Assembly: GCA_949825065.1 (NCBI GenBank)
Contig: CATKWJ010000009.1
Location: forward strand, 310,001-374,000
DNA: 64,000 nt
Direction: 5' to 3'
Origin: Odontocerum albicorne
Lineage: Eukaryota; Arthropoda; Insecta; Trichoptera; Odontoceridae
Numbering within the stretch: the stretch's first letter is position 1; the number at the start of each line of letters is the position of its first letter. A model generated the notes under the pieces. That model worked only from the letters and a program-made list of their open reading frames with translations. It was not told the DNA's origin and did no database searches. The position numbers and the translations under genes were made by a program. Positions 5,034-57,238 of the stretch are shown here, in pieces.

Positions 5034-6541
5034 TTAAATGGTGGACTCAACTTCTATTGTTTGAGAAGGCCTCTCTCCACGATGACTCATTTCATGAGAA
5101 TTCCAACGATCTTTTCGTGAGAATGTCTTATCACATTGTCCACACTTGTAAGGCTTCTCTCCACTATGAATCCTTTCATGATATTTTAAATTATCTATTC
5201 GTGAGAATGTCTTATCACATTGTCCACAGCTGTAAGGCTTTTCTCCACTATGAATCCTTTCATGAGAAATCAAACAATCTTTCCGTGAGAATGTCTTATC
5301 ACATTGTCCACAGCTGTAAGGCTTCTCTCCACTGTGAATATTTTCATGATATTTTAAATTAAATATTTGAGAGAAAGTTTTATCACATTGTCCACAGCTG
5401 TAAGGCTTTTCTCCACTATGAATCCTTTCATGAGATTTCAAGTCACCTTTTCGTAAGAACGTCTTATCACATAGTCCACAGCTGAAAGGCTTCTCTCCAC
5501 TATGAATCCTTTCATGAGAATTCAAAAAACCTTTGCGTGAGAATGTCTTATCACATTGTCCACAGCTGTAAGGCTTCTCTCCACTATGAATCCTTTCATG
5601 AGAATTCAAACAACCTTTCCGTGAGAATGTCTTATCACATTGTCCACAGCTGTAAGGCTTCTCTCCACTATGAATCCTTTCATGATATTTTAAATTTACT
5701 ATTTGTGAGAATGTTTTATCACATTGTCCACAGCTATAAGGCTTTTCTCCACTATGAATCCTTTCATGAGATTTCAAGTCACCTTTTCGTAAGAATGTCT
5801 TATCACATTGCCCACAGCTGTAATGCTTCTCTCCACTATGAATCCTTTCATGATATTTTAAATTACCTATTTGTGAGAATGTCTTATCACATTGTCCACA
5901 GCTGTAAGGCTTCTCTCCACTATGAATCCGTTCATGATATTTTAAAAGGCATTTTTTTGAGAATGTCTTATCACATTGTCCACAGCTGTAAGGTCTTTCT
6001 CCACTATTATTCATTTCATGAGATTTTAAAGAATCTATTCGTGATAATGTCTTATCACATTGTCCACAGCTGTAAGGCTTCTCTCTACAATGAGTTCTTT
6101 CATGAGATTTTAAAATATGATGTTTTAGTGATAATGTCTTATCACACTGTCCACAAATGAAAGGTTTCTCTCCAGTATGAATACTTAAATGAAATACTAA
6201 ATTATTTTTAACAGAGAATGCCTTTCCACATTGTCCACAGCTGTAAGGCTTCTCTCCACTATGAATCCTTTCATGATCTCTTAATTTGTCTTTTCGTAAG
6301 AATGTCTGTGAACAATTTCCACAACCATAAGAATTCCCTCCAGATGGATTATTTTTATGATGTTTTAAACTCATTTTTTGTGTAAATAACTTTTTACAAT
6401 TTTTAATGCTGCAGGGATTTTCCCCTCTATGAATTCTGAATTTACATTTTAAATTTGAACTGTTTCCACAATGTTCAAAGCCATGAGAACCACTTTCACT
6501 GCTTTTCTCTTTCCTAAATTGGTTGCTCATATCACCTGAAT
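5034..6541 (-). CDS. Poly-C2H2 zinc-finger protein copy A, exon 3
   Basis: This is the terminal exon of a predicted 648-aa nuclear zinc-finger protein. It joins exon 2 at an AG acceptor (6542-6543) and encodes SGDMSNQF-type sequence before the array. Two degenerate fingers (FEHCGNSSNLK, shortened relative to copies B and C, and CSIKNCKKLF...HHKNN, which has lost its last His) precede about 15 C2H2 fingers. One of these (HEMNN) also lacks the final His, and one has an extra residue (LSLKHHILKSH). Linkers are mostly HSGEKPYSCGQCDKTF instead of the usual HTGEKP. Helix residues vary (RKGDLKSH, QIGNLKYH, RKGCLNSH, RIDNLKYH). Long multi-finger arrays usually bind specific DNA and repress transcription; the target is unknown. 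The last residues (GERPSQTIEVESTI) are not finger-like and come from decay of a further finger. Confidence 0.85.
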
Positions 6542-6786
6542 CTAAAAATATATGAAAATTAAGAAAAAATCACTAAATTATTGAAAAGATAGATCTCAGT
6601 TCTTTTTGTTATAAAGCATTTCTCAAATTCGAGTTCTTTGATCGACACAACAATTAACATGTATTGAATTGTTTATTTAGGCTTAACTTGAATCCTATTT
6701 CAAATCAAATAAAACAATGATGTTCTTCTGAATTTAATAATTAAGCTAAAAGTTTTTCAGATAACAATTAAAATAATTATACTCAC

Positions 6787-7041
6787 TCGTTATTGTATGC
6801 GTGTCAGAAACATCAACAGTCTCTGTGTTACTGTCCCGAGCACATTCCTTTTTTATATCCGCTTCCTGTATGTCCATAGCAAAATCAGGTAATACTGGCG
6901 CAGTATCCTCTGGTAAATTTTCTTCTTTTATGAAAAAATCTGAACAAATTTCCAATTCCAAATCATAGGATTGCCTTTGTGAACTCATTACTGAGGTAAT
7001 TTCTTTATTGAATATATCATAAGATGGCTGGGCTTTAATAT
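6787..7041 (-). CDS. Zinc-finger protein copy A, exon 2 (acidic module)
   Basis: This 255-nt symmetric (phase 1-1) exon lies between an acceptor TTCATAG at 7042-7048 and a donor GTGAGT at 6786-6781. It encodes IKAQPSYDIFNKEITSVMSS, then an acidic stretch with IKEEN and ADIKKEC. Both Lys sites fit psi-K-x-E, the SUMO-attachment consensus. The module repeats the pattern of exon 1 (KEE, DTA, P, DI, EADIK, EC). In many insect zinc-finger proteins such acidic N-termini act in protein interaction; no known named domain was recognised. Confidence 0.8.
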
Positions 7042-8036
7042 CTATGAACAAAACATACAAGTTCAAATCTTCTGAAGTAATAAAACAAATAGACAACATA
7101 TTATCAACAACTCGAAACCTCGTTTGTTTCACTTTCTGTTAATAAGTCTGAACTGACAATAAGGCCAACACAGCACTAATAGACCTATCTTATCTTAAAA
7201 TGGCATGGCTTTTTAGCTAGTACGATGTGACTCAAGAAGATTATTAGGTTGAATGCTCAAGAAGATTGATGGTGCAGTTAATATATGTAATAGTTCCAAG
7301 TTAGGGGCGGAAGAAAAACAAGAGCGATGATTTGGTTCTCATCAGCAGAACTACCTTATATTTAATGGTCTTCAGATGATATTGATTCATTTTTTAACAG
7401 TTTCAATGGCAAGCACTGAATAATCCACATATAAATTAGTACCGCACAGGCCAGCATGGCTTTATAAGCATGAATAATGTTGAGTGTATATTACCGATTC
7501 GACATATGGTACTAATTCTTTATAATAAGTATAGATACTGCCATCTCTGTAGTAGATCATGAATAGTTCTGTCACTTGTTCTGATAAATTCTGATCCAGA
7601 TATTGTCATTTTTCTTAAGTGATCCATTTGACAACCATTATGTGTTACAATATTTTTTGGCATAATTTATACAATGAACTAAATGAAATTTGTGCATTGT
7701 GTTTCATATTCTACAGTTTTTAGCGTAGTGATAACTCTGAATTCAATTTAGTGACAGGAAAAAATCATTAAATTTGATCAAAATGAGGTATACAACATAA
7801 CAGAACATCAACATACCGTGGTTGATATATTTTTTACATATTATGATTTAAATATTTTTCAAAATAAAAATGTCAAAAACATTCTGGCCTAAAAGTACAC
7901 ACCGCCTTATCCATGTCTGGTATGGAATAGGTGGTGGGTACCTGTAGGTTAAACACCACTCATACAACATAAGTTAATTGCTTGTCACATCTCATATATT
8001 TATTTTATTTTAACAATATGAGTTTATTAAGTTTAC

Positions 8037-20565: not shown

Positions 20566-21852
20566 TTAGGTCCTTACATATGAAATTGGCGTTTTGCCGT
20601 ACTGGCAACTTTGATCTCAAATATCTTCTCTTTGGTTAGGAATTTCAAATTCAAATTTATACAGCTATTTACTCAAGTATTTGTGTTTCGAAAATTATAA
20701 TTCATTTGTTTTTTCCTCAATTGTTTTTTTTCTTTGCGTCACTCAGTTTACAAAATGGAAAACTTGAAATATCGCGTTATTTACGAGTACGAGTTCCACC
20801 GTGGCACCAGTGCTGCAGAAACGGCTCGAAGGATTAATGATGTGTATGGCGACGGTGCCGCAAAAGAAAACACAGTGCGTTTTTGGTTCCAACGTTTTCG
20901 TTCTGGAAATTTCGACCTGCAGAAAAAGCCCCGTGGACGGCCGGAGACCAAAGTTGATAATGAAGAATTGAAGGCTTTTGTGGAAGCGGATCCATCGCAA
21001 ACCACGTCCGAGTTAGCTGCAGGCTGCGGTGTTAGTGATAAAACTGTTTTAATCCACTTGAAGCAAATTGGGAAGGTGAAAAAGCTTGAAAGGTGGGTAC
21101 CTCACGAATTGAGTGAAGCAAATCAACAAACGCGCGTTGACTGCTGCGTTGCATTACTCAACCGGCACAATAATGAAGGGATTTTGAATCGAATCATTAC
21201 CTGTGATGAAAAGTGGATCCTGTATGATAATCGGAAGCGCTCATCGCAATGGCTGAACCCTGCCGAACCAGCCAAACCATGCCCCAAGCGAAAATTGACT
21301 CCAAAAAAGTTACTTGTGAGCGTTTGGTGGACTAGTGCTGGTGTCGTTCACTACAGCTTTCTTAAATCTGGCCAGACGATTACGGCAGATGTCTATTGTC
21401 AGCAACTGCAAACCATGATGGAAAAGCTAGCTGCTAAACAACCGAGGCTGGTTAATCGCTCTAGGCCACTGCTGCTTCATGATAACGCTAGACCACACAC
21501 TGCACAACAGACGGCTACCAAATTAGAAGAGCTTCAATTGGAATGTCTAAGACATCCACCGTACTCTCCGGACCTTGCCCCAACAGATTACTATTTTTTT
21601 CGAAATTTGGATAACTTCTTGCAAGGGAAAAAATTCAACTCCGATGGGGCAGTCCAAACCGACTTCAAAGATTTTATTGATTCCCGTCCGAATGGTTTTT
21701 TTAGTAAAGGGATCGATGAACTACCTATGAGATGGCAAAAGTGCATAGATAGCAATGGTACATACTTTGATTAAATAAATATATTATATTAAAAAAAAAT
21801 CAACTTTATGTTCCTCCCAAACAAAACGCCAATTTCATATGTAAGGACCTAA
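20566..21852 (+). mobile_element. Complete mariner element nested in piggyBac
   Basis: This 1287-bp element has inverted termini TTAGGTCCTTACATATGAAA and TTTCATATGTAAGGACCTAA. It is flanked by TA on both sides (20564-20565 and 21853-21854). The size, TIR length and TA duplication fit the mariner family. It lies inside the piggyBac element of copy B's intron 1, so it arrived later. Confidence 0.95.
20755..21774 (+). CDS. Mariner transposase, apparently intact (339 aa)
   Basis: This is a DD34D transposase that cuts and joins mariner ends. ATG at 20755 (MENLKYRVIYEYEFHRG) is the best start; the open frame extends seven codons upstream, but only to a TTG. Residues 1-110 hold two helix-turn-helix units (ENTVRFWFQRFRSGNFDL, then TSELAAGCGVSDKTVLIHL). 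The linker motif WVPHEL is at 114-119. Catalytic residues are D151 (ITCDEKW), D243 (LLHDNARPH) and D278 (YSPDLAPTDYYFF), with exactly 34 residues between the last two. The C-terminus is SRPNGFFSKGIDELPMRWQK...GTYFD. The sequence is closest in style to the cecropia/Hsmar1 group. No stop or shift is seen, so it may be active or recently active. Confidence 0.95.
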   Translation: MENLKYRVIYEYEFHRGTSAAETARRINDVYGDGAAKENTVRFWFQRFRSGNFDLQKKPRGRPETKVDNEELKAFVEADPSQTTSELAAGCGVSDKTVLIHLKQIGKVKKLERWVPHELSEANQQTRVDCCVALLNRHNNEGILNRIITCDEKWILYDNRKRSSQWLNPAEPAKPCPKRKLTPKKLLVSVWWTSAGVVHYSFLKSGQTITADVYCQQLQTMMEKLAAKQPRLVNRSRPLLLHDNARPHTAQQTATKLEELQLECLRHPPYSPDLAPTDYYFFRNLDNFLQGKKFNSDGAVQTDFKDFIDSRPNGFFSKGIDELPMRWQKCIDSNGTYFD

Positions 21853-23085
21853 TATATACGTAGTGTAAAAAATAGTGAATTGTGATAGTGTGTGTATCTT
21901 GTACTTAGTTCAAATTATGAAACTAACGTTTTTATTATCTCAGTTGTTTTGTGTACATTCTCAACTTGAAGAAGTAAATTGATAAAGTTCAACGGCTGTA
22001 AAACAAAAGAGAAATAGAAAAAAAGGCAAGAATTATTATGTTGAAAATAAATACAGAATGCTTGTGTGGTGTGCACGCACATTTAGTTCACTCGGCCTTG
22101 AATGTTTAGTGCCCTCATAAACTTCTCTCGATAAGGATTCGTCGCCGGTTTCATGTGTTTTGAAGACACGAAGGAATACACTTGTATATGATGTTTCAAT
22201 AGAAAGTAGAATTTGATTTTTAACAAAGTTATGGGTTTTCAAAAATTCGCGAATTTTCAGCATCTCTGTATGACATTAAGTATTTTATACGCAGTGAACG
22301 TGTTAATCACGGTATGTTGATGTTCTGTTATGTTGTATACCTCATTTTGATCGAATTCTATGATTTTTTCCTGTCTCTTAATTGAATTTAAAGTTATCAC
22401 TACACTAAAAACGGTAAAATATGAAACACATTGTACAAATTTCATTTCGTTCTTTATATAAATTTAAGTCAAAAAATATTGCAATGCCAATAAGGCTGTC
22501 AAATGGATCACTTGAGATGACCATATCTAAATCAGAATTTATGTTAACTTGTGACAAAAATATTCATGATCTACTACAGAGATGGCAATATCTGTACTGA
22601 TTGTAAAAAATTATAACCATATGTTGAATTGGTAATATAAACTCAACATTATTAACGCTTATATAACCACACTGACCTGTGCGGTACTGATTTGTAATGT
22701 GGATAATTCAGTGCTTGGCATTGAAACTGTTAAAAAATGAATCAATATCATCTGAAAACCATAAAATATAAGGTAGTTCTGCTGATGAAAACCAAATCAT
22801 CGCCTTTATTTTTCTTCTGCCCCTAACTCGGAACTATTACATATATTAACTGCACCATCAATCTTCTTGAGCATTCGACCTAATAGTCTTCTTGAGTCAC
22901 ATCGTACTAGCTAAGAAACCATGCCATATTAAGATAAGAGAGGTCTATGAGTGCTGTGTTGGCGTTATTATCAGTTCAGACTTTTTAACAGAAAGTGAAA
23001 GAAACGAGGTTTCGAGTTGTTGATAATATGTTATCTATTTGTTTTATTACTTCAGAAGATTTGAACTTGTATGTTTTTTTCATAG

Positions 23086-23340
23086 ATATTAAAGCCCAGC
23101 CATCTTATGATACGTTCAATAAAGAAAATACCTCAGTAATGAGTTCACAAAGGCAACCCTATGATTTGGAATATGAAATATGTTCAGATATTTTCATAAA
23201 AGAAGAAAATGTAGAAGAGGATACTGCGCCAGTATTCCCTGATTTTGCTATGGACATACAGGAAGCGGATATAAAGAAGGAATGTGCTCGGGACAGTAAC
23301 ACAGAGACTGTTGATGTTTCTGACACGCATGCAATAACGA
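23086..23340 (+). CDS. Zinc-finger protein copy B, exon 2 (acidic module)
   Basis: The acceptor is TTTCATAG ending at 23085 and the donor is GTGAGT at 23341. The 255-nt symmetric exon encodes IKAQPSYDTFNKENTSVMSS followed by IKEENVEEDTAPVFPDFAMD and ADIKKEC. The psi-K-x-E sites and the DTA/P/EADIK layout repeat those of exon 1. Confidence 0.8.
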
Positions 23341-23675
23341 GTGAGTATAATTATTTTAATTGTTATCTGAATAAGTTTTCGCTTATTCATTAAATTCTGA
23401 ACAACAAATTTTTTTTATTTGGTTTGAAATAGGATTCAAGTTCAAGGATTCAAGATTCAAGTAGCTCAAATAATAAAGTTTAAATATTTTTATCTTAACT
23501 CTGTCAATTTTTCTTAGTTAACAATTTAATACAAGTTAATTGTTGTATAAATAAAAAAACTCACATTTGAGAAATGCTTTATTACAAAAAGAACTATAGT
23601 CTATCTTTTCAACCCTTCAATATTCAAAAAAATATGTATTTCAGAGATTTTTCATTAATTTTCATGTATTTTTAG

Positions 23676-24658
23676 GTTCAGGTGATATGAGCAACCAATT
23701 TAGTAAAGAGAAAAGCAGTGAAAATGGTTCTCATGGCTTTGAACATTGTGGAAACATGTTCTCAAACAGTTCAAATTTAAAACGCAAAATAAGAATTCAT
23801 AGAGGAGAAAATCCCTGCAGCTTTAAAAATTGTAAAAAGTCATTTACAGAAAAAAATAATTTAAAACATCATAAAAATAATCAATCTGGAGAGAAATCCT
23901 ATGGTTGTGGAAGTTGTTCACAGATATTCTCACAAATAGATACATTAAGACATCATGAAAGGATTCATAGTAGAGAGAAGTCTTACAGCTGTGAAGAATG
24001 TGATAAGACATTCTCACGAAGATATGATTTAAGAGATCATAAAAGTATTCATACTGGAGAGAAGCCTCACAGCTGTAGAGAATGTGATAAGACATTCTCA
24101 CGAAAAGGTGATTTGAAATCTCATGAAAGGATTCATAGTGGAGAGAAGTCTTACAGCTGTGGACAATGTGATAAGACGTTCTTACGAAAAGGTGATTTGA
24201 AGTCTCATGAAATGACTCATAGTGGAGAAAAGCCTTACAGCTGTGGACAATGTGATAAGACATTCTCACGAAAATGTTATTTGAAATTTCATGAAAAGAT
24301 TCATAGTGGAGAGAAACCTTACCATTGTGGACAATGTGATAAGGCATTCTTACGAAAAAACAAATTAATATATCATGAATGGATGCATAGTGGAGAGAAG
24401 CCTTACAGCTGTGGACAATGTGATAAGACATTCTTACGAAAAGGTGATTTGAAATCTCATGAAAGGAGTCATAGTGGAGAAAAGCCTTACAGCTGTGGAC
24501 AATGTGATAAGACATTCTCACGAATAGATAATTTAAGAACTCATGAAAGGATTCATAGTAGAGAGAACCCTTACAGCTGTGAAAAATGTGATAAGACATT
24601 CACACGAAAAGATTATTTGAATTCTCATAAAAAGATTCATAGTGGAGAGAAGCTTTAA
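23676..24658 (+). CDS. Poly-C2H2 zinc-finger protein copy B, exon 3, truncated by Harbinger insertion
   Basis: This is the terminal exon after acceptor TTTTTAG (23675), giving SGDMSNQFSKEKSSENGSH. Two degenerate fingers are followed by nine C2H2 fingers, from YGCGSCSQIFSQIDTLRHH to YSCEKCDKTFTRKDYLNSH. Linkers are HSGEKP, HSREKS or HTGEKP. The frame ends at GEKL followed by TAA, where the stop is built by the target site and first bases of an inserted repeat. Past the insertion the array remnant reads YSCRQYSKDIIK and stops (25538-25573). Copy B thus has the shortest array (predicted 473 aa in total), and its original 3' end and 3' UTR are lost. Confidence 0.82.
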
Positions 24659-28988: not shown

Positions 28989-29395
28989 TTGCAAAAAAAG
29001 CCACAAGAAGACAGCCATAAGAGAATAAAAGTAACTGTAGAAATGAAACGTAAAATCATTGAAAAGCGAGAACGAGGTGTTAGCGTGGCTGATCTAGCGC
29101 GCACATACAATCGGTCTACATCAACGATTTGCTCTATCCTCGAGAACAAGGACAAAATTAAGAAGACAGATGCTTCAAAGGGAGTGTCAAGAATGTCTAC
29201 GAAACGGTTACCTATTCTTGATGATGTTGAAAGGTTGCTTCTCATATGGATAAACGAAAAGTAATTGCAAGGCGATACTATTAACCAAAACATCATTTGT
29301 GAGAAGGTGAAGGTTATTTTCGCCGACCTCTTTAAGAAGACGCCAGGATCATCAACTGCCGAAAAAGAAGTACAATTTAAGGGAAGTCATGGATG
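28989..29395 (+). pseudogene. Tigger transposase N-terminal (CENP-B-like HTH), 5' part
   Basis: The frame reads VTVEMKRKIIEKRERGVSVA, then LARTYNRSTSTICSILENKD, the CENP-B-type helix-turn-helix of Tigger transposases. An in-frame stop follows INEK (29262-29264). The reading then continues LQGDTINQNIICEKVKVIFA up to GSHG, where the LTR element cuts it. Removing the LTR element joins it to WFEKFKRRTG at 31692. Confidence 0.85.
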
Positions 29396-29974
29396 TGTAA
29401 CGATGGTCGGTATCAGTGTAGCATGTGTCCTATTAGGACGTGCTGATGATTTTGATATCGACATCGTTATCTTTATTTTAGTCGATTCTGCATTCCCTCT
29501 CGTTCAGGGTCATCAATATAGCGGGTTGCTTATGTTTATTTGTCGTGATGATCTTGATTTGTAGCCAATGAATATAGACTCAGGAATGCGGATATAAATC
29601 GATAAGTGGACAGCAGGTAAATAAATATCAAGTCTTGACAGTTGAATGAATGACAATACTAATGTGTTTATTTCTCGGAGCGCAGGTATTTTATACAGAT
29701 GAGTGAACCAGTTCGCGCTACATGCTCCGTCTCACTCTGGCACGTGAATTGGCGGTAGCTTATTTATTTGTATTTGGAGATGGCTAGACAAATCGCGGGT
29801 ACTACAAAAATAGTAAACATTGTCGCCGTCCTTGACGTGTAGCAATCTATGAATACTTCATCGGTCATTGCCCCTGTATGTTTATTATTAACAATAATTA
29901 ATTTAATTTATTTGTGTTTTAACAATTCACTTATTATTTTGACAATTATTTATTTACTAGGTAGGTATCCTACA
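29396..29974 (-). repeat. 3' LTR (579 bp)
   Basis: It matches 31295-31689 almost base for base over its first 360 bp and its last 30 bp. It has about 185 bp (29758-29945) not found in the other LTR. TG...CA ends are present in either orientation. The one clear base difference noticed in the shared part (TTTATTTTAG versus TTTGTTTTAG) suggests a recent insertion. Confidence 0.88.
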
Positions 29975-30224
29975 TGGCTCCCTTCTTAGTGAACGCAGAG
30001 GGCGCGTGCCTTGCGTGAACGTTAGGTTCCGGTGCATCTGACGTCGGGCTGGCTATCCGTTCTCCGTGTCGAAGTAGGTACGTGGATAACATCAGCGCGT
30101 GGCGTTTTTTTCCCAGATCTGTCGGTCAGATGGGTGATGCGGAACGGGGGGTAGGCTTGGTCGTCTCTCACTAAATTTGAATTGTCTGCGGTGCTTGGTT
30201 GGTCGTTGCGTTGATCGTCGATGA

Positions 30225-30665
30225 TTGGTTGTGTGGATCAAGTTGCAGATGGCGTCCGCGGTGGAAGGTGGATCTGCAATTGCTTGATGATGGTGGTGAT
30301 GGTGTGGATCAAGTTGCAGATGGCATCCGATGAGGATGGTTGATCTGCGGTTGCTTGATGATGATGGTGATGGTGTAGATCAAGTTGCAGATGGCATCCG
30401 ATGTGGAAAGTTGATCTGCGGTGGCTTGATGATGATGGTGATGATGTTGATCAAGTTGCAGATGGCTTCCGATGTGGAAGGTTGATCTGCGGTGGCTTGA
30501 TGATGATGTTGATCAAGTTGCAGATGGCGTCCGATGTGGACGGTTGATCTGCAGGTGCTTGATGATGGTGGAGTCTGCGGTGCTCGTTGCTGCAGCGTGG
30601 TTGTATCGTGGTTGTAGCGTGGTTGTAGCGTGGTTGTAGCGTGGTTGTAGCGACGTTGTGGCGAT
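30225..30665 (-). repeat. Two minisatellites inside the LTR element
   Basis: At 30225-30560 about five units of 62-72 bp share GATCAAGTTGCAGATGGC and GGTTGATCTGCGGTGGCTTG. At 30590-30660 a 12-bp GTGGTTGTAGCG unit recurs about five times. On the minus strand an open frame (30451-30780) starts one base after the H2B stop and translates the repeats into His/Thr/Gln-rich low-complexity sequence. It shows no known domain. Confidence 0.8.
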
Positions 30666-30781
30666 GCTTGTCTGCTCCAGCGTTTTGTCGGTCAGTAGTT
30701 CGTCGAGGGAGGCAATCCTGTAAATCGTGTGGCTGATCGCCAGGACTGACCTCACATGAGCTGGCGTCGGGCTCGTCCATA

Positions 30782-31033
30782 TCAGATGTTGTGTTGTATC
30801 TGAGTGACGGCTCTGGTGTCCTTGCTGGCGGCGTGCTTGGCCAGTTCGCCGGGGAGTAGAATCTTGACGGTTGTCTGGATCTCTCTGCTGGTGATGATGT
30901 TCATCTTGTTGTAGTGGGCGAGGCGGTTGGCGTTGGCGGCGGTGCGCTCGAAAATCTTGTTGACGAAACTGTTCATGATGCTCATTGCGTTGCTGCTGAT
31001 AATGGCGGTGTCGAGTTGCACTTGTTCTGACAT
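30782..31033 (-). CDS. Histone H2B-like protein captured in an LTR element (83 aa)
   Basis: The uninterrupted frame begins [20 protein letters not shown], continues [58 protein letters not shown] and ends QIQHNI. It covers all three helices of the H2B histone fold plus the C-terminal helix. By eye about two thirds of residues match canonical H2B, with one extra residue near the start (AII for GI). The basic N-terminal tail is absent and an ATG sits where the fold begins. Codons mostly end in C or G, unlike the AT-rich surroundings, as expected for a gene from another genomic context. It is in sense with the retroelement and replaces gag-pol. Whether it is expressed is unknown; it could also be a neutral passenger. 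Confidence 0.88.
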
Positions 31034-31074
31034 TGCTGTCGAGTCGGCGATATTCGATATAGTCGAGGTACGTA

Positions 31075-31294
31075 TTCAGTTTTCGTGCGGGTTCAGTTTT
31101 CGTGCGGGTTCACCAATGTAGCGATGGTGGCGATGGTACGTCGTTGTCGAAATACGTGTTCGGTTTTCGTTCGGGGTCAATGTAACGATGGTGTAGTTCG
31201 TCGATGTACGTGTTCGGTTTTCTTTCGGGGTCACCAATGTAACGATGGTGTAGTTCGTCGATGTACGTGTTCGGTTTTCTTTCGGGGTCACCAA
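31075..31294 (-). repeat. Tandem array of LTR-end/PBS junction units
   Basis: On the minus strand the unit is ACCATCGTTACA (LTR 3' end), then TTGGTGACCCCGAAAGAAAA (primer site) and CCGAACACGTACATCGACGA. The LTR junction copy is followed by two close copies (one missing GGTGA in the PBS) and a more degenerate copy with TTGGTGAACCCGCACG. The period is about 61 bp at first, then shorter. The element therefore has one true and up to three extra primer-site-like sequences. Confidence 0.85.
31280..31294 (-). other. Primer-binding site of the LTR element
   Basis: It reads TTGGTGACCCCGAAA on the minus strand, immediately next to the LTR end CGTTACA. A TGG start next to the LTR is typical of tRNA-primed elements. 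The tRNA was not identified. Confidence 0.7.
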
Positions 31295-31689
31295 TGTAAC
31301 GATGGTCGGTATCAGTGTAGCATGTGTCCTATTAGGACGTGCTGATGATTTTGATATCGACATCGTTATCTTTGTTTTAGTCGATTCTGCATTCCCTCTC
31401 GTTCAGGGTCATCAATATAGCGGGTTGCTTATGTTTATTTGTCGTGATGATCTTGATTTGTAGCCAATGAATATAGACTCAGGAATGCGGATATAAATCG
31501 ATAAGTGGACAGCAGGTAAATAAATATCAAGTCTTGACAGTTGAATGAATGACAATACTAATGTGTTTATTTCTCGGAGCGCAGGTATTTTATACAGATG
31601 AGTGAACCAGTTCGCGCTACATGCTCCGTCTCACTCTGGCACGTGAATTGGCGGTAGCAATTATTTATTTACTAGGTAGGTATCCTACA
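31295..31689 (-). repeat. 5' LTR (395 bp)
   Basis: This is the direct repeat partner of 29396-29974, with an internal deletion of about 185 bp where TTATTTATT occurs on both sides in the longer LTR. It is followed on the plus strand by the target duplicate GATG (31690-31693). Confidence 0.88.
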
Positions 31690-31830
31690 GATGGTTCGAG
31701 AAATTTAAGAGAAGAACCGGCATCCACAGCGTTGTGAGGAACGGTGAAGCAGCAAGCTCTGATACAAAGGCAGCAGAGAACTTCATTATCGACTATAAGA
31801 AGCTCGTAGATTCTGAAGGTTACCGGATTT
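31690..31830 (+). pseudogene. Tigger transposase N-terminal, 3' part
   Basis: It continues the frame interrupted at 29395: GWFEKFKRRTGIHSVVRNGE, then AASSDTKAAENFIIDYKKL and VDSEGY. This is the end of the CENP-B-type DNA-binding region. The DDE domain is absent, and the reading runs into AT-rich DNA and the right terminus. Confidence 0.85.
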
Positions 31831-32141
31831 TACTTATAGTGAAAAAGAATTAATTATTTGTCATAAATTCATAAATAAAAAACTAATTATTTCGATTTTT
31901 TTATTGTTTTTTGCAAATCGAAATCGCATTCCGGGTTATTACTCTCCTTAACAATTTATAAGTACGTAATTTTATTTGAATAAACGTTAAAAATAAAAAA
32001 AAATGTATTTTTTTCGGCATGGAACGCATTATCGTATTTTACATTGATTTATATGGGAAAAATTGTTTCGCTTAACGAGTGTTTCACATAACGAGTAAGA
32101 TTCTGAAACGAATTATTCTCGTTATGAGAGGTTCCACTGTA

Positions 32142-38921: not shown

Positions 38922-39245
38922 GTGAGTTTAATTATTTTAATTGTAATCTGAATAAGTTTTCGCGTATTCATTAAATTCTTGGCAACATAATTTTTTTATT
39001 TGGTTTGATATAGGATTCAAGTTAAGCCTTAGCGCAAATAATAAAGTTAAAATATTTTTATCTTAACTGTGTCAATTTTTTGTAGTTAACAATTCAATAC
39101 AAGTTAATTGTTGTGTGAATAAAAAAAAAACTCATATTTGAGAAATGCTTTATTATAAAAAGAACTAAGATCTATCTTTTTAACCCTTCAATATTTAAAA
39201 AAATGTATAATTCAGAGATTTCCATTAATTTTCATATATTTTTAG

Positions 39246-40732
39246 ATTCAGGTGATATGAGCAACCAATTTAGTAAAGAGAAAAGCAGTGAAAATGGCTC
39301 TCATGGCTTTGAACATTGTGGAAACATGTTCTCAAACAGTTCAAATTTAAAACACAAATTAAGAATTCATAGAGGAGAAAATACCTGCAGCTTTAAAAAT
39401 TGTAAAAAGTCATCTTCACAAAATATGAGTTTAAAACATCATAAAAATAATCCATCTGCCGGAAATTCCTCTGGTTGTGGAAATTGTCCACAGAAATTCT
39501 CACAAAAAGATCATGAAATGATTCACAGTGGAGAGAAGCCATACAGGTGTGGACAATGTGTTAAGACATTCTCACGAAAATATAAATTAAAACTTCATGA
39601 AAGGATTCATACTGGAGAAAAGCCTTACAGCTGTGGACAATGTAATAAGACATTCTCACTAAAATGCGTTTTAAAATCTCATGAAAGGATTCACAGTGGA
39701 GAGAAGCCTTACAGCTGTGGACAATGTGAAAACACATTCTTACGAAAAGGTGATTTGAAATCTCATGAAAGGATTCATAGTGGAGAAAAGCCTTACAGCT
39801 GTGGACAATGTGATAAGACATTCTCACAAAAAAATACATTAACATTACATGAAAGGATTCATAGTGGAGAGAAGCCTTACAGCTGTGGACAATGTGATAA
39901 GACGTTCTCACAAAAATACTTTTTTAAATCTCATGAAAGGCTGCATAGTGGAGAGAAGCCTTACAGCTGTGGACAATGTGATAAGACATTCTCTTATAAA
40001 CGTTATTTGAAATCTCATGAAAGGAGTCATAGTGGAGAAAAGCCTTACAGCTGTGGACAATGTGATAAGACATTCTCACGAATAGGTTATTTAAAAACTC
40101 ATGAAAGGATTCATAGTGGAGAGAAGCCTTACAGCTGTGGACAATGTGATAAGACATTCTTACGAAAAGGTGATTTGAAATCTCATGAAATGAGTCATAG
40201 TGGAGAGAAGCCTTACAGCTGTGGACAATGTGATAAGACATTCTCACTAATAGGTTATTTAAAAACTCATGAAAGGATTCATAGTGGAGAGAAGCCTTAC
40301 AGCTGTGGACAATGTGATGAGATATTCTTACGAAAAGGTGATTTGAAATCTCATGAAAGGAGTCATAGTGGAGAAAAGCCTTACAGCTGTGGACAATGTG
40401 ATAAGACATTCTCACGAATAGGTTATTTAAAAACTCATGAAAGGATTCATAGTGGAGAGAAGCCTTACAGCTGTGGACAATGTGATAAGACATTCTTACG
40501 AAAAGATTGTTTGAAATCTCATGAAAGGAGTCATAGTGGAGAAAAGCCTTACAGCTGTGGACAATGTGATAAGACATTCACACGAATAGGCAATTTAAAA
40601 TCTCATGAATTGATTCATAGTGGAGAGAAGCCTTACAGCTGTGGAAAATGTGATAAGACATTCTCAAAAAAAAGTTATTTGAAATCTCATGGAAAGATTC
40701 ATAGCGGAAAGAAGCCTTACAGCTGTAGATAA
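39246..40732 (+). CDS. Poly-C2H2 zinc-finger protein copy C, exon 3
   Basis: This is the terminal exon of a predicted 639-aa protein. After NSGDMSNQFSKEKSSENGSH come two degenerate fingers, a shortened finger (GCGNCPQKFSQKDHEMIH) and 14 regular C2H2 fingers. From about the seventh regular finger the array alternates RIGYLKTH and RKGDLKSH helices, as if a two-finger block had been copied three times. The last finger (KKSYLKSHGKIH) is followed by HSGKKPYSCR and a TAA stop. Linkers are HSGEKPYSCGQCDKTF almost throughout. The role is most likely sequence-specific DNA binding in the nucleus, with repression as the usual outcome for such arrays; the target is unknown. Further finger-like sequence after the stop shows that the array used to be longer. 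Confidence 0.85.
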
Positions 40733-49570: not shown

Positions 49571-50329
49571 GTCACTTTCATCAAGGCCGTTTCCCTGCAG
49601 GATTTTGGAACATTGAGTTGTTCAGGAGTTCTTTGGTTTTCCTTCTGTTAAACCTTACAGCTGTTATATTGTATACCTCATTTTGATCAAATTCAATGAT
49701 TTTTTTCTGTGACTGATGGCACATAATACAATAGCTATTAAGTGGATCACTTTCTGTGACTGATGGCACATAATAGCTGTCAAGTGGATCACTTTCGAAA
49801 AATGTGCACTATCTGGATCAGAATTTATTTTAACAAATGACAAAAATGACTAAAATATTCATACTAATTGTAAAAAATTAAAACCATATATTGAATTGGT
49901 AATATGAACTCAACATTATTAACACTTATATAACTACACTGGCCTGTGTGGTACTGATTTATATGTGGATAATTCAGTGCATGGCATTGAAACTGTTAAA
50001 AATGAATTAATATCATCTGAAGACCATAAAATATAAGCTAGTTCTGCTGATGAGAACCAAACCCTAGGCCTTAGTTTTCTTCAGCCCCTAACTTGGAACT
50101 ATTACATATATTAACTGCACCATCAATCTTCTTGAGCATTTTACCTAATAATCTTTTTGAGTCACATAAAAGTAGCTAAAAAACCATGCCATATTAAGAT
50201 AAGATAGCTCTATGAGTGCTGTGTTGGCCTTATTGTCTGTTCACACTTATTTATTTCAAGTTGTTGATAATATATTATCTATTTGTTTTATTACTTCAGA
50301 AGATTTGAACTTGTATGTTTTTTTCATAG

Positions 50330-50578
50330 ATATTAAAGCCCAGCCATCTTATGATACATTCAGTAAAGAAATTACCTCAGTAATGAGTTCACAAAAGCAA
50401 TCCTATGATTTGAAATTCTGTTCAGATTTTTTCAAAAAAGAAGAAAATGTACCAGAAGATACTGCGCCAGTATTACCTGATTTTGCTATGGACATACAGG
50501 AAGCGGATATAAAGAAGGAATGTGCTCGGGACAGTAACACAGAGACTGTTGATGTTTCTAACACGCATGCAATAACGA
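50330..50578 (+). CDS. Zinc-finger protein copy D, exon 2 (acidic module)
   Basis: It lies between acceptor TTTCATAG (50329) and donor GTGAGT (50579). The 249-nt exon encodes IKAQPSYDTFSKEITSVMSS, KKEENVPEDTAPVLPDFAMD and ADIKKEC. The first psi-K-x-E site is altered to KKEE. Confidence 0.82.
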
Positions 50579-50856
50579 GTGAGTATTAATAATTAAATTG
50601 TTTTTTGAATAAGTCGCTTTATTCATTAAATTCTGAACCACATAATATTTTTTATTTGGTTTGAAATAGGATTTAAGTTAATCCTTAGGGCAAATAATAA
50701 ATTTAAAATATTTTTATCTTAACTCTGTAAATTTTTTCTATGTTTATAATTCAATACAAGTTAATTATTGTATTGACTCAATTTTGAGATATGCCTTATG
50801 AAAAAAAAACTGATTTATCTTTTTAACCCTTCAATGTAAAAAAATACAGTATAAAG

Positions 50857-50975
50857 TCAGGGGTCTCCAAACTATGGCAGGGTAACAGGCTTTTTTGTAC
50901 TCCCCTGAAGATGAGGTGAAAGCCTTGAAACCGGTAGGGTTATACCTTCATAAAAAGTGGAATAAACAGTGTTTG
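50857..50975 (+). repeat. MITE end and upstream-block fragment in intron 2 of copy D
   Basis: CAGGGGTCTCCAAACTATGG, the left terminus of the hAT-like MITE at 49070, is joined to a piece of the upstream block (AAGCCTTGAAACCGGTAGGG ... AAGTGGAATAAACAGTG). Both are out of place in intron 2, which explains its larger size (451 bp against 245-335 bp). Confidence 0.6.
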
Positions 50976-51029
50976 TTAAAAATAAATTACAAATTATAAA
51001 GTTTTTTCTTAATTTTCACATGTTTTTAG

Positions 51030-52069
51030 GTTCAAATGATATGAGCAACCAATTTTGTGAAGAGAAAAGCAGTGAAAATGGTTCTCATGGCTTTCAACAT
51101 TGTGGAAATAGGTTCTCCAACTGTATAAATTTAAAAATTCATAATGGAAAAAATCCCAGCAGCTTGAAAAAATGTAAAAAGTTCTTTACAGAAAAATTAA
51201 GTTTAAAACATAAAAATAATCCTTGTGGAGAGAAGCCCTATGGTTGTGGAAATTGTTCAAAAACATTCTCAAATAAAAAAAATTTAAAATCTCACGAAAG
51301 GATTCACAGTGGAGAAAAGCCGCATAGCTGCGGGAAATGTGGAAAAACATTCTTAAGAAAGTGTAAATTAAAATATCATGAAAGGATTCACAGTGGAAAG
51401 AAGCCCCATAGCTGTGGACAATGTGGAAAGACATTCTCAGAAAAAAGTATTTTAAAACGTCATGAAAGGATTCATACCGGAGTCAAGCCTTACAACTGTG
51501 GACAGTGTGATAAAACATTCTCACAAAAATGTATTTTAAAATCTCATGAGAGGGTTCATAGTGGAGAGAAGCCTTACAGCTGTGTACAATGTGATAAGGC
51601 ATTCTCTCAAAAGTGTCGTTTAAAGTCTCATGAAAGGATACACAGTGGAGAGAAGCCATACACCTGTGGACAGTGTGATAAGACATTCTCACAAAAAGAT
51701 AATTTAAAATCTCATGAAACGATTCATAGTGGAGATAAGCCTTTCAGCTGTGTAGAATGCGATAAGACATTCTCACGAAAAGATAAATTAAAATCTCATG
51801 AAAGAATTCATAGTGGAGAGAAGCCTTACAGCTGTGGACAATGTCATAAAATATTCTCACTAAAATGTACATTAAAAACTCATGAAAGGATTCACAGTGG
51901 AGAGAAGCCTTACAGCTGTGGACAATGTGATATGAAATTCTCTCTTAAATGTCGTTTAAAATCTCATGAAAGGATTCATAGTGGAGAGAAGCCTTACAGC
52001 TGTGCACAATGTGATAAGACATTTTCACGAAAAGATAAATTAAAATGTCATGAAAGGATTCACAGTTGA
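51030..52069 (+). CDS. Poly-C2H2 zinc-finger protein copy D, exon 3
   Basis: This is the terminal exon of a predicted 490-aa protein. After SSNDMSNQFCEEKSSENGSH come two degenerate fingers and ten regular C2H2 fingers, from YGCGNCSKTFSNKKNLKSH to YSCAQCDKTFSRKDKLKCH. Helices differ from the other copies: KCKLKYH, EKSILKRH, KCILKSH, KCRLKSH, KDNLKSH and KDKLKSH, giving more Lys/Arg at contact positions. The frame ends at HS followed by TGA where the linker codon GGA (Gly of SGEK) should be. A single base change therefore cut the array. The next finger (EKPYNCEKCVKTLSDNTNLL) is still readable after it. Copy D's fingers are the most distinct in sequence of the four. Confidence 0.85.
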
Positions 52070-54963: not shown

Positions 54964-57238
54964 CAGGCGAACCTCGACTTTCGCACATAATTGGTTCCTG
55001 AAAATGTGTGCGAAAGTTAAATGTTCGAAAGTAGAGGGAAGAAAAAAAAACACCAAAGATTGTATATACTTCAAAAATTTTATTTGTCAAAAATTACTCA
55101 GTACATATTAAATTGAAATTATATTTTTTTAACGAAATTGTCAAGAGTTTTTTGTATTTTATTATTTTTTTTCTTTTCTTCATAGAGAGTTCTGTAACAC
55201 GCAGTGCTATTATGGATCTCCCTACGCACTTTAGATATGCGTTCTCCATTTGGGTCACATTCTTCTATAATATTTAAAAATTTCTCAATATGTGTTAAAG
55301 CTTCGTTCAAGTTTTTTAATGTTAAGGTATTGGGTATTTCTTCTGGTTCTTCTTCCTCACTTTCGTTTTGTACGTATGAACTAGAATTTTCATTCTCGTG
55401 ACGATCCATAAGAAATTCATTTGACAATGGTTCAGAATGTGATTCTATCAATTCATTAACATCTTCGCTATTGACTTCAAGGCTTAGTTCATTCATCAGG
55501 TGAACTATTTCAAGAGTTATGGTTTCTGGGGTATCATCAAAATTTTGAAAATCACTCATCATCTGTGGGCATAGTTGCTTCCACGAACCTTTCATTGTTG
55601 ACTCTTTTATTTCAGCCCATGCATCTCCAATATTATTTATTGCATTCCATATGTTATAATTTTTCCAGAAATCTATTAATGTGGGCCCACCTTCCATTTC
55701 AGTTGCCTTGATGGCCTGATTCATGATCGACCGCATATAATATCGTTTAAACGTAGCTATCACCGTTTGGTCCATGGGTTGTATGAGACACGTAGTATTG
55801 GGGGGAAGAAACACTACATTGATTTCTGGGTATAAATTTTGTAGAGATTTTGGGTGTCCTGGAGCATTATCTAAGATTAATAATGCTTTAAATGGTAAAT
55901 TATTAACTTCACAATAATGTTTTACTGCTGGTACAAAATGTGAAGTAAACCAATATTTAAATATTAAAGCGGTAACCCAGGCTTTTTTATTGGATTTCCA
56001 AATGACTGGAAGCAATTTTTTATCTTTCCCTTTCAATGCTCTAGGATTTTCTGCTTGATAAACTAACAATGGCTTCAATTTTAAATCACCAGCTAAATTT
56101 CCACCAAGAAGCAATGTCAATCGGTTTTTAGAAGGTTTATGGCCAGGCGCAACTGATTCATCCTTTGATAAGAATGTACGATTAGGCATCTTCTTCCAAA
56201 ATAAACCAGTCTCATCTACATTGAATATTTGACTAGAGGTATATTCTCCATCTTCAATAATTTTGGACAGTGACGGAATAAAGTCTTTTGCAGCATCTTT
56301 ATCCGCATCGGCTGATTCTCCGGTGAATTTAATATTGCGTAAAGAATACCTTGTTTTAAAATTTGAAAACCAGCCGTTACTTGCATGAAACACCGTGTCA
56401 GAATCATTTTTTAGTCTAGCCTTCCAATCATTATGCAAGCTAATAGCCCTAGCTTGAATCTCCGAAGTACTCAGAGGTACGTCTTTTTGATTTTGGTCAC
56501 TAATCCAATACATCAAAGATTTCTCCATTTCATCAATTACTATGCCGTGCTTTTTGGAAACAATTTTTGATGATATATTTCCACAATTTTTTACATATTC
56601 CTTAATTTTATTTTTATTCTTTAATATCGAACATATCGTAGACCTGTTTATATCATACGATCGGCCAATTGAAGCAAACGACTCTCCATTTTCAGATCGT
56701 TTTATTATATCCATCTTCGTTTCGATTGTATGAAGTTTATGGGTTCTTGGTTTTTTTTAGCTATATTTACTTCACAGTTTTTTCGTTTCTCACTCATGTT
56801 AAAACTTTTTTTTTTTTTTTTTTAAACAAAATAATTTATTTAATATTACTACTGTACAACTTCTCCCAAAATAAATTATGTTAAAACGGGTACGTAATAT
56901 TTGAAACAAAACTCGCAGAACAATTCATCTGTGCGTATGCTAACGCAAGACTGAACCTGTCGAGATCAGACGGGAGTGTGTACAAATTAGTAAATTCAAA
57001 TGCATGCGTTTGATTCGCTCGCTCTCGTATGTTAATGCATATGTGCGAACATATGTGCGAACAGGACATAACACTTTTCACAGTGCGGACTGGGCTCATA
57101 AGCGTTTCATGGTGCAACAGGGAAACAAAACATTTTTGCATTATTTCGGGAAAAAAATAATTAAAAAACTATTTTTCAAAAATGTGCGAAATAGCGAATT
57201 GTGCGAAAGTCGAATGTGCGAAAGTCGAGGTTCGCCTG
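54964..57238 (-). mobile_element. Tigger-type transposon, nearly complete
   Basis: Termini CAGGCGAACCTCGACTTTCG and the exact inverse are flanked by TA (54962-54963 and 57239-57240). Subterminal GTGCGAAAGT motifs are repeated in both ends. Length is 2275 bp, usual for a full Tigger/pogo element. It encodes the long transposase frame at 55119-56714. Confidence 0.95.
55119..56714 (-). CDS. Tigger/pogo transposase (531 aa readable), N-terminal frameshift
   Basis: This is a DDE transposase of the pogo/Tigger group, related to TIGD proteins. Residues 1-35 hold the end of the first CENP-B-type HTH (SFASIGRSYDINRSTICSIL). Residues 60-125 hold the second DNA-binding unit (ASNGWFSNFKTRYSLRNIKF). The catalytic core has D167 (FNVDETGLFWKKMP), D282 (LLILDNAPGHP) and D315 (CLIQPMDQTVIATFKRYY). 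An acidic C-terminal part (NESEEEEPEEIP) and a coiled-coil-like end follow. The ATG at 56714 is probably internal to the original gene: in another frame upstream there is MSEKRKNCEVNIAKK (from about 56798). The two frames meet at an eight-A run near 56750-56760, where one extra A would join them. This may be a true one-base deletion or a homopolymer sequencing error. Confidence 0.93.
   Translation of the reverse strand: MDIIKRSENGESFASIGRSYDINRSTICSILKNKNKIKEYVKNCGNISSKIVSKKHGIVIDEMEKSLMYWISDQNQKDVPLSTSEIQARAISLHNDWKARLKNDSDTVFHASNGWFSNFKTRYSLRNIKFTGESADADKDAAKDFIPSLSKIIEDGEYTSSQIFNVDETGLFWKKMPNRTFLSKDESVAPGHKPSKNRLTLLLGGNLAGDLKLKPLLVYQAENPRALKGKDKKLLPVIWKSNKKAWVTALIFKYWFTSHFVPAVKHYCEVNNLPFKALLILDNAPGHPKSLQNLYPEINVVFLPPNTTCLIQPMDQTVIATFKRYYMRSIMNQAIKATEMEGGPTLIDFWKNYNIWNAINNIGDAWAEIKESTMKGSWKQLCPQMMSDFQNFDDTPETITLEIVHLMNELSLEVNSEDVNELIESHSEPLSNEFLMDRHENENSSSYVQNESEEEEPEEIPNTLTLKNLNEALTHIEKFLNIIEECDPNGERISKVRREIHNSTACYRTLYEEKKKNNKIQKTLDNFVKKI

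Follow-up and report, generated by a model that had tools for sequence, protein, structure and literature searches.

LTR elements are known to capture host genes, and DNA transposons and Helentrons to capture histones. TR-GAG elements are gag-only LTR elements, with a Gag ORF between the LTRs and no pol. In acutely transforming retroviruses, gag-onc fusions carry host sequence that replaces viral coding sequence downstream of the gag start, and a helper is needed. An early example of an LTR element with pieces of host genes, none of them full-length, is Bs1 of maize, as described in the available part of the source (PMC13317346). Histone sequences are reported from elements of other classes: a hAT transposon of Pseudocercospora fijiensis captured the core histone H3 and was amplified to hundreds of copies (PMC6710886), and Helentron-Cq-32A, an insect element from Culex, carries fragments of H4 and H1 and is present in eight copies (PMC4067079). 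Among the papers listed by narrow term searches of the open-licence PMC literature, none described an LTR family whose gag holds a core histone.

The locus considered here lies in a stretch of 64,000 nucleotides from Odontocerum albicorne, referred to below as the window. With a probability of roughly three in four, we regard it as one member of a non-autonomous LTR family akin to gag-only elements, in which a histone H2B segment replaced a piece of gag and probably travels as a passenger.

The element is 2,294 bp long with an interior of 1,320 bp (Table 1), and it displays the hallmarks of an LTR retrotransposon: two LTRs, TG...CA ends, a target-site duplication (TSD), and stretches resembling a primer-binding site (PBS) and a polypurine tract (PPT). 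The LTRs differ by 1 mismatch over 395 shared bases, the right LTR being without 184 bp. On the minus strand, the PBS-like TTGGTGACCCCGAAAGAA comes after the right LTR, and the PPT ACTAAGAAGGGAGCCA comes before the left LTR. These two stretches place the element on the minus strand and the H2B frame, therefore, in sense, as the initial annotation had proposed. That annotation also described the element as non-autonomous, with neither gag nor pol. The second half of this description stands, since no pol of its own (protease, RT, RNase H, integrase) was seen in the ORFs and translations read by eye, while protein-family scans covered the H2B frame, ORF2, and the Gag of one other copy (L074) only. 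The first half does not: gag has left remnants in the ATG and in the sequence beyond H2B. TRIMs are bound by a size limit below the length of this element and, as a class, are very small and without coding sequence; its size and its ORF place it outside that class. ORF2 (30451-30780, minus strand) was considered as a second gene and rejected: it has no homologue, and its ATG occurs in just one copy out of 40, that of the window. Rfam, which includes the histone 3' stem-loop, gave no match at gathering score within 29300-31800, either to the stem-loop of replication-dependent histones or to any other family.

Table 1. Features of the window copy, in window coordinates.
Feature	Position	Strand	Basis or remark
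Target-site duplication GATG, left	29392..29395	none	sequence
3' LTR, 579 bp, TGTAGGAT...CGTTACA on the minus strand	29396..29974	-	TATAAA at 29695, AATAAA signals
Polypurine tract (PPT-like) ACTAAGAAGGGAGCCA	29975..29990	-	
3' internal segment	29975..30225	-	query for second copy sample
71-bp tandem repeats, 4.9 copies	30231..30571	-	
11-bp tandem repeats	30594..30663	-	
Gag remnant, out of frame with the H2B frame	30670..30802	-	alignment to L074 gag ORF
H2B-derived segment, residues about 47-119 (human numbering)	30803..31024	-	junctions uncertain by a few bases
Open frame: gag start codons, H2B segment, and out-of-frame gag tail (IQHNI*)	30782..31033	-	
Leader with 57-bp repeats duplicating the primer-binding site	31034..31294	-	
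Primer-binding-site-like sequence TTGGTGACCCCGAAAGAA	31277..31294	-	
5' LTR, 395 bp, without 184 bp between short TTATTTATTT repeats	31295..31689	-	
Target-site duplication GATG, right	31690..31693	none	sequence

Several other features of the window were noted. The PBS and the end of the LTR are tandemly duplicated at 31034-31306 and in other leaders, with 1 to 4 PBS-like copies per leader (30 in view). The insertion target is a plus-strand frame resembling, by eye, a pogo/Tigger-type transposase (29043-29395 and 31694-31850), and a similar-looking transposase frame of 531 aa, also named by eye, lies at 55119-56714 on the minus strand. A mariner-like transposase ORF of 346 aa without stops, again named by eye, occupies 20734-21774. 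Long C2H2 zinc-finger ORFs form a cluster by eye (5034-6530 on the minus strand, 23687-24658, 39203-40732, and 50969-52069). Some of them have similar acidic ORFs nearby (6746-7132 on the minus strand, 22995-23393, and 50212-50589), and several of the finger arrays face long antisense ORFs, both likewise seen by eye.

The H2B frame comprises 83 codons, from ATG to TGA, and reads from 31033 to 30782 on the minus strand. It matched PF00125 in Pfam (E 3.7e-8) and H2B chains in the PDB (E about 1e-28). Among 5.8 billion proteins, the best 120 of 3,868 matches (46-145 aa) were 68-75% identical to it, and for longer proteins the best 120 of 2,105 matches came no closer than 76%; closer relatives were sought in these two sets and none was found. 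Three of the four top matches inspected (P0002-P0004) have duplicated H2B stretches, which raised their scores. A search of IMG/VR found no relatives. The alignment to P0079 contained 55 identical residues out of 75 and 20 replacements. Judged by these alignments, a chance origin of the H2B match is excluded, and the Pfam, PDB, and protein matches bear out the H2B frame named in the initial annotation.

Homology to H2B starts at residue about 46 (44 in the Drosophila chain 2nqb) and ends at about 120. It extends over most of the core domain and covers what we take to be helices alpha2, alpha3, and alphaC. The N-terminal tail is absent, as annotated, and so is helix alpha1; the whole H2B fold claimed initially is thus reduced to one without a complete alpha1-alpha2-alpha3 arrangement. 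Helix alpha1 was also sought in another upstream frame and rejected, the 120 nt upstream resembling the H2B N-terminus no better than shuffles did (P 0.34). GC at third codon positions of the frame was 0.79 against 0.35 for the whole window, in agreement with the description of GC-rich codons in AT-rich DNA. An AlphaFold2 model of the frame was weak (pLDDT 67.6, pTM 0.46), too weak for a fold search. Replaced residues include K120Q, R86M, T88I, E113K, D68K, and E76N, at positions that we assume to be ubiquitination, DNA-contact, acidic-patch, and H4-contact sites; residues with presumed roles in the hydrophobic core were mostly kept. Other copies have more canonical H2B states (DTGISSK in L037, L039, and L040; VND in L063, L064, and L067), so that the extra residue and the lysine of the window copy at these places look derived within the family.

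To count copies, we searched the 1.287-Gb genome with two queries. The region 30700-31100 gave 580 candidates, of which 40 were scored and all 40 read. These 40 lie on 24 contigs, and the 39 scored matches besides the window are 95-98% identical to it over about 400 bp. The 3' segment (29975-30225) gave 445 candidates; 40 were scored, 25 of them were new relative to the first 40, and 20 of these 25 were fetched. Identity over the 3' segment was 95-98% in the 39 best other matches and 88-98% in another set of copies. H2B sequence was present in 57 of the 60 copies read, and a Gag frame took its place in the other 3. The H2B frame was open with an ATG in 47 of the 60 (37 of 40 in the first sample and 10 of 20 in the second), open without any in-frame ATG in 4, and broken in 6 (L027, L031, L046, L059, L060, and L062), L059 being without the middle of H2B. 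The ATG-less copies (L065, L070, L072, and L077) form a subgroup with a differing leader end and an H2B segment 97.6-98.0% identical to that of the window. In none of the 32 copies examined was the longest stop-free frame (148-324 codons) the H2B frame itself; in our reading, such frames result from GC-rich third positions together with the gag remnant.

In other copies that have both LTRs, the interior spans about 0.7-1.5 kb. Fourteen of the 32 copies fetched with flanks (the window and 13 others) have exact 4-bp TSDs, and these differ in sequence. In 26 of these 32 copies, 280 or more bases of the LTR pair could be aligned, and the median mismatch within their pairs was 0.63% (range 0-2.9%). 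Thus, the copies are separate, young retrotranspositions. A histone-gene array or an assembly error, in place of a mobile element, would have nothing beyond the H2B match in its favor. It is refuted by the many dispersed copies with LTRs and TSDs, no other histone was noticed by eye in the ORF list of the window, and the Rfam search of the locus gave no match; we consider its probability negligible. The initial annotation had looked to many dispersed copies with H2B as support, and these were found. Of the two refutations it had named, an assembly error joining a histone locus is ruled out, since H2B occurs in 57 copies and several of these have target duplications of their own. The other was an H2B copy both unexpressed and unique within its LTR family; relatives without H2B do exist (3 of 20), yet the window copy is far from unique.

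These three relatives (L068, L074, and L076) came from the 20 copies picked by the 3' segment. Each has a Gag frame; that of L074 is complete, with 292 aa, and those of L068 and L076 run off the end of the DNA fetched. The L074 Gag matched PF23055 (DUF7041) at residues 29-108 (E 3.8e-12), a domain that we take to be that of insect gypsy Gag, and the CYYHNRFGKNALRC in the frame is, in our reading, putatively zinc-knuckle-like. Clues to a Ty3/gypsy membership consist of the DUF7041 Gag and the 4-bp TSD, no pol having been found for phylogeny. In the 1.15-kb stretches of the three copies, no pol was found between gag and the 3' segment: the gag stop is followed by the same tandem repeats and then by the 3' segment, so that no pol lies in between. 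All three thus have gag without pol in the stretches seen. With no pol seen in either the H2B or the gag kind, both were presumably moved in trans.

The end of the leader, the start codon, and the residues MSKQ are common to the gag copy and the H2B copies. From 30802 onward, the window copy realigns with the L074 gag in a different frame, which accounts for the IQHNI and the stop that close the H2B frame. The distance from the ATG to this rejoining point is 400 nt in L074, against 231 nt in the window copy. H2B residues about 46-120 stand for about 385 nt of gag, from the fifth codon to codon about 133, DUF7041 included. We infer that the gag copies represent the older state and that the replacement arose when reverse transcriptase twice changed templates between the element RNA and a histone H2B mRNA, the 5' switch perhaps aided by shared Lys-Gln codons (MSKQ of gag and LKQ of H2B), with reverse transcriptase and integrase supplied in trans. 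The alignment with gag and the copies show that the resulting chimera uses the leader and start codon of gag and has retrotransposed many times. The initial suggestion that a non-autonomous LTR element captured a segment of H2B is supported. The dating of this capture as not very old needs correction, for it predates the window insertion and is common to the family.

The captured piece could be a functional cargo. A truncated H2B of 82-83 aa, translated from the gag start, would bind H2A or nucleosome-assembly factors and help the element, e.g., through looser silencing or guided integration. The 47 copies open with an ATG are in keeping with such a role. The ATG codon was present in 40 of 40 first-sample copies, and in 27 of the 30 copies with the first PBS-like site in view no other ATG occurs from that site to the start, a second point in favor of a cargo. 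However, gag starts at this codon too, which explains both the kept ATG and the ATG-free leader.

Amino-acid changes were about as frequent as neutrality predicts and were probably not strongly removed. The 51 open frames (4 without ATG) contained 58 nonsynonymous and 17 synonymous variants (pN/pS 0.87), the shared ones numbering 29 and 8 (0.93), and the 37 open frames of the first sample contained 42 and 11 (pN/pS 0.96). The shared variants reject an omega of 0.3 (P 1.6e-4) and of 0.5 (P 0.018) and are compatible with 0.7 (P 0.13), in tests that assume independent variants, an assumption weakened by recombination and descent. The dN/dS below 1 expected initially of a functional cargo was not borne out by these ratios, with values near 0.7 still compatible. 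Two stops were observed in the first 40 copies against 1.4 expected among 55 point variants. In simulations of neutral substitution amounting to 20 replacements (substitutions only, no frameshifts), 57% of runs contained no stop, and an open frame alone is therefore weak evidence. Replacements relative to canonical H2B were slightly conservative (mean BLOSUM 0.15, against -0.35 for neutral change; P 0.084). A weak frame-keeping signal remains in the indels: in the alignments used, two of the three classes of indel within H2B (40 copies) preserved the frame compared with 1 of 28 outside it (Fisher P 0.019), the comparison set being the 3' segment in 19 copies and the 3' LTR in 17. L064 has a further in-frame deletion in H2B, and L060 and L062 have frameshifts.

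A functional protein gains from these in-frame indels and from the mostly kept core residues, if their roles are as we assume. It loses from a pN/pS of about 0.9 with shared variants included, the absence of helix alpha1 and the weak structural model, the replacement of K120 and of presumed DNA-contact residues, and the four copies without an ATG. On balance we find such a cargo unlikely. Likewise unlikely is an LTR lineage that swapped its capsid domain for a truncated H2B, translated from the gag start and kept in frame, and that acts in trans on chromatin or on H2A-H2B supply so as to favor the spread of the family. The near-neutral variants, the neutral stop count, the ATG-less copies, and the replaced key residues favor a passenger, and the H2B segment is likely a passive one. 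Young copies and GC-rich codons, rather than a chromatin function, best account for its open frame, which is short, with GC-rich third positions and gag's own ATG.

A different possibility is that the piece is of use at the RNA or DNA level, as a spacer or for packaging, in place of gag sequence needed for length or dimerization. Divergence between copies was 0.024 in H2B, 0.032 in the post-H2B sequence, 0.040 in the 3' segment, and 0.096 in the LTR (21, 21, 19, and 17 copies, respectively), in a sample chosen by similarity of the H2B region and with the neighboring non-H2B interior nearly as uniform. An interior less divergent than the LTRs would suit this explanation, as would the similar synonymous and nonsynonymous rates. 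However, LTR subfamilies recombining with a common interior would yield the same contrast, and LTR and H2B distances correlate weakly (r 0.30). Moreover, L059 and the gag copies exist without an intact H2B segment, and the region had no Rfam match. A role as RNA or DNA is, in our judgment, improbable.

This locus is a clear case of a host core-histone segment captured inside a retroelement, one in which gag-bearing relatives make both breakpoints readable. It also calls for caution more generally: if copies are young and codons GC-rich, a domain that looks conserved and stays open in many of them can still be near-neutral. Should the weak frame-keeping signal grow with more copies, a retroelement-made histone would become testable.

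Set against the gag-onc fusions, the family is not a virus, gives no sign that its cargo acts, and continues after the captured piece with gag out of frame. PbTRIM of an ant is similarly non-autonomous, young, and multi-copy, with a 4-bp TSD, but the available part of its description mentions no host coding cargo (PMC3532108). Helentron-Cq-32A, although an insect element with histone fragments, is a rolling-circle element whose fragments carry a stop, a frame shift, and indels, according to the portion of the report at hand (PMC4067079). Bs1 is, like the window family, an LTR element with transduced pieces of host genes, but it comes from a plant and, as far as the available text of the source goes, its three host genes encode a membrane ATPase, a xylan endohydrolase, and a beta-1,3-glucanase and include no histone (PMC13317346). 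The hAT of P. fijiensis comes close in having amplified a core histone, but it is described, in the text available, as a fungal DNA transposon with H3 copies inactivated by RIP, (PMC6710886), whereas the window family is of the LTR type, and the internal piece of H2B that it holds has its frame open in most copies.
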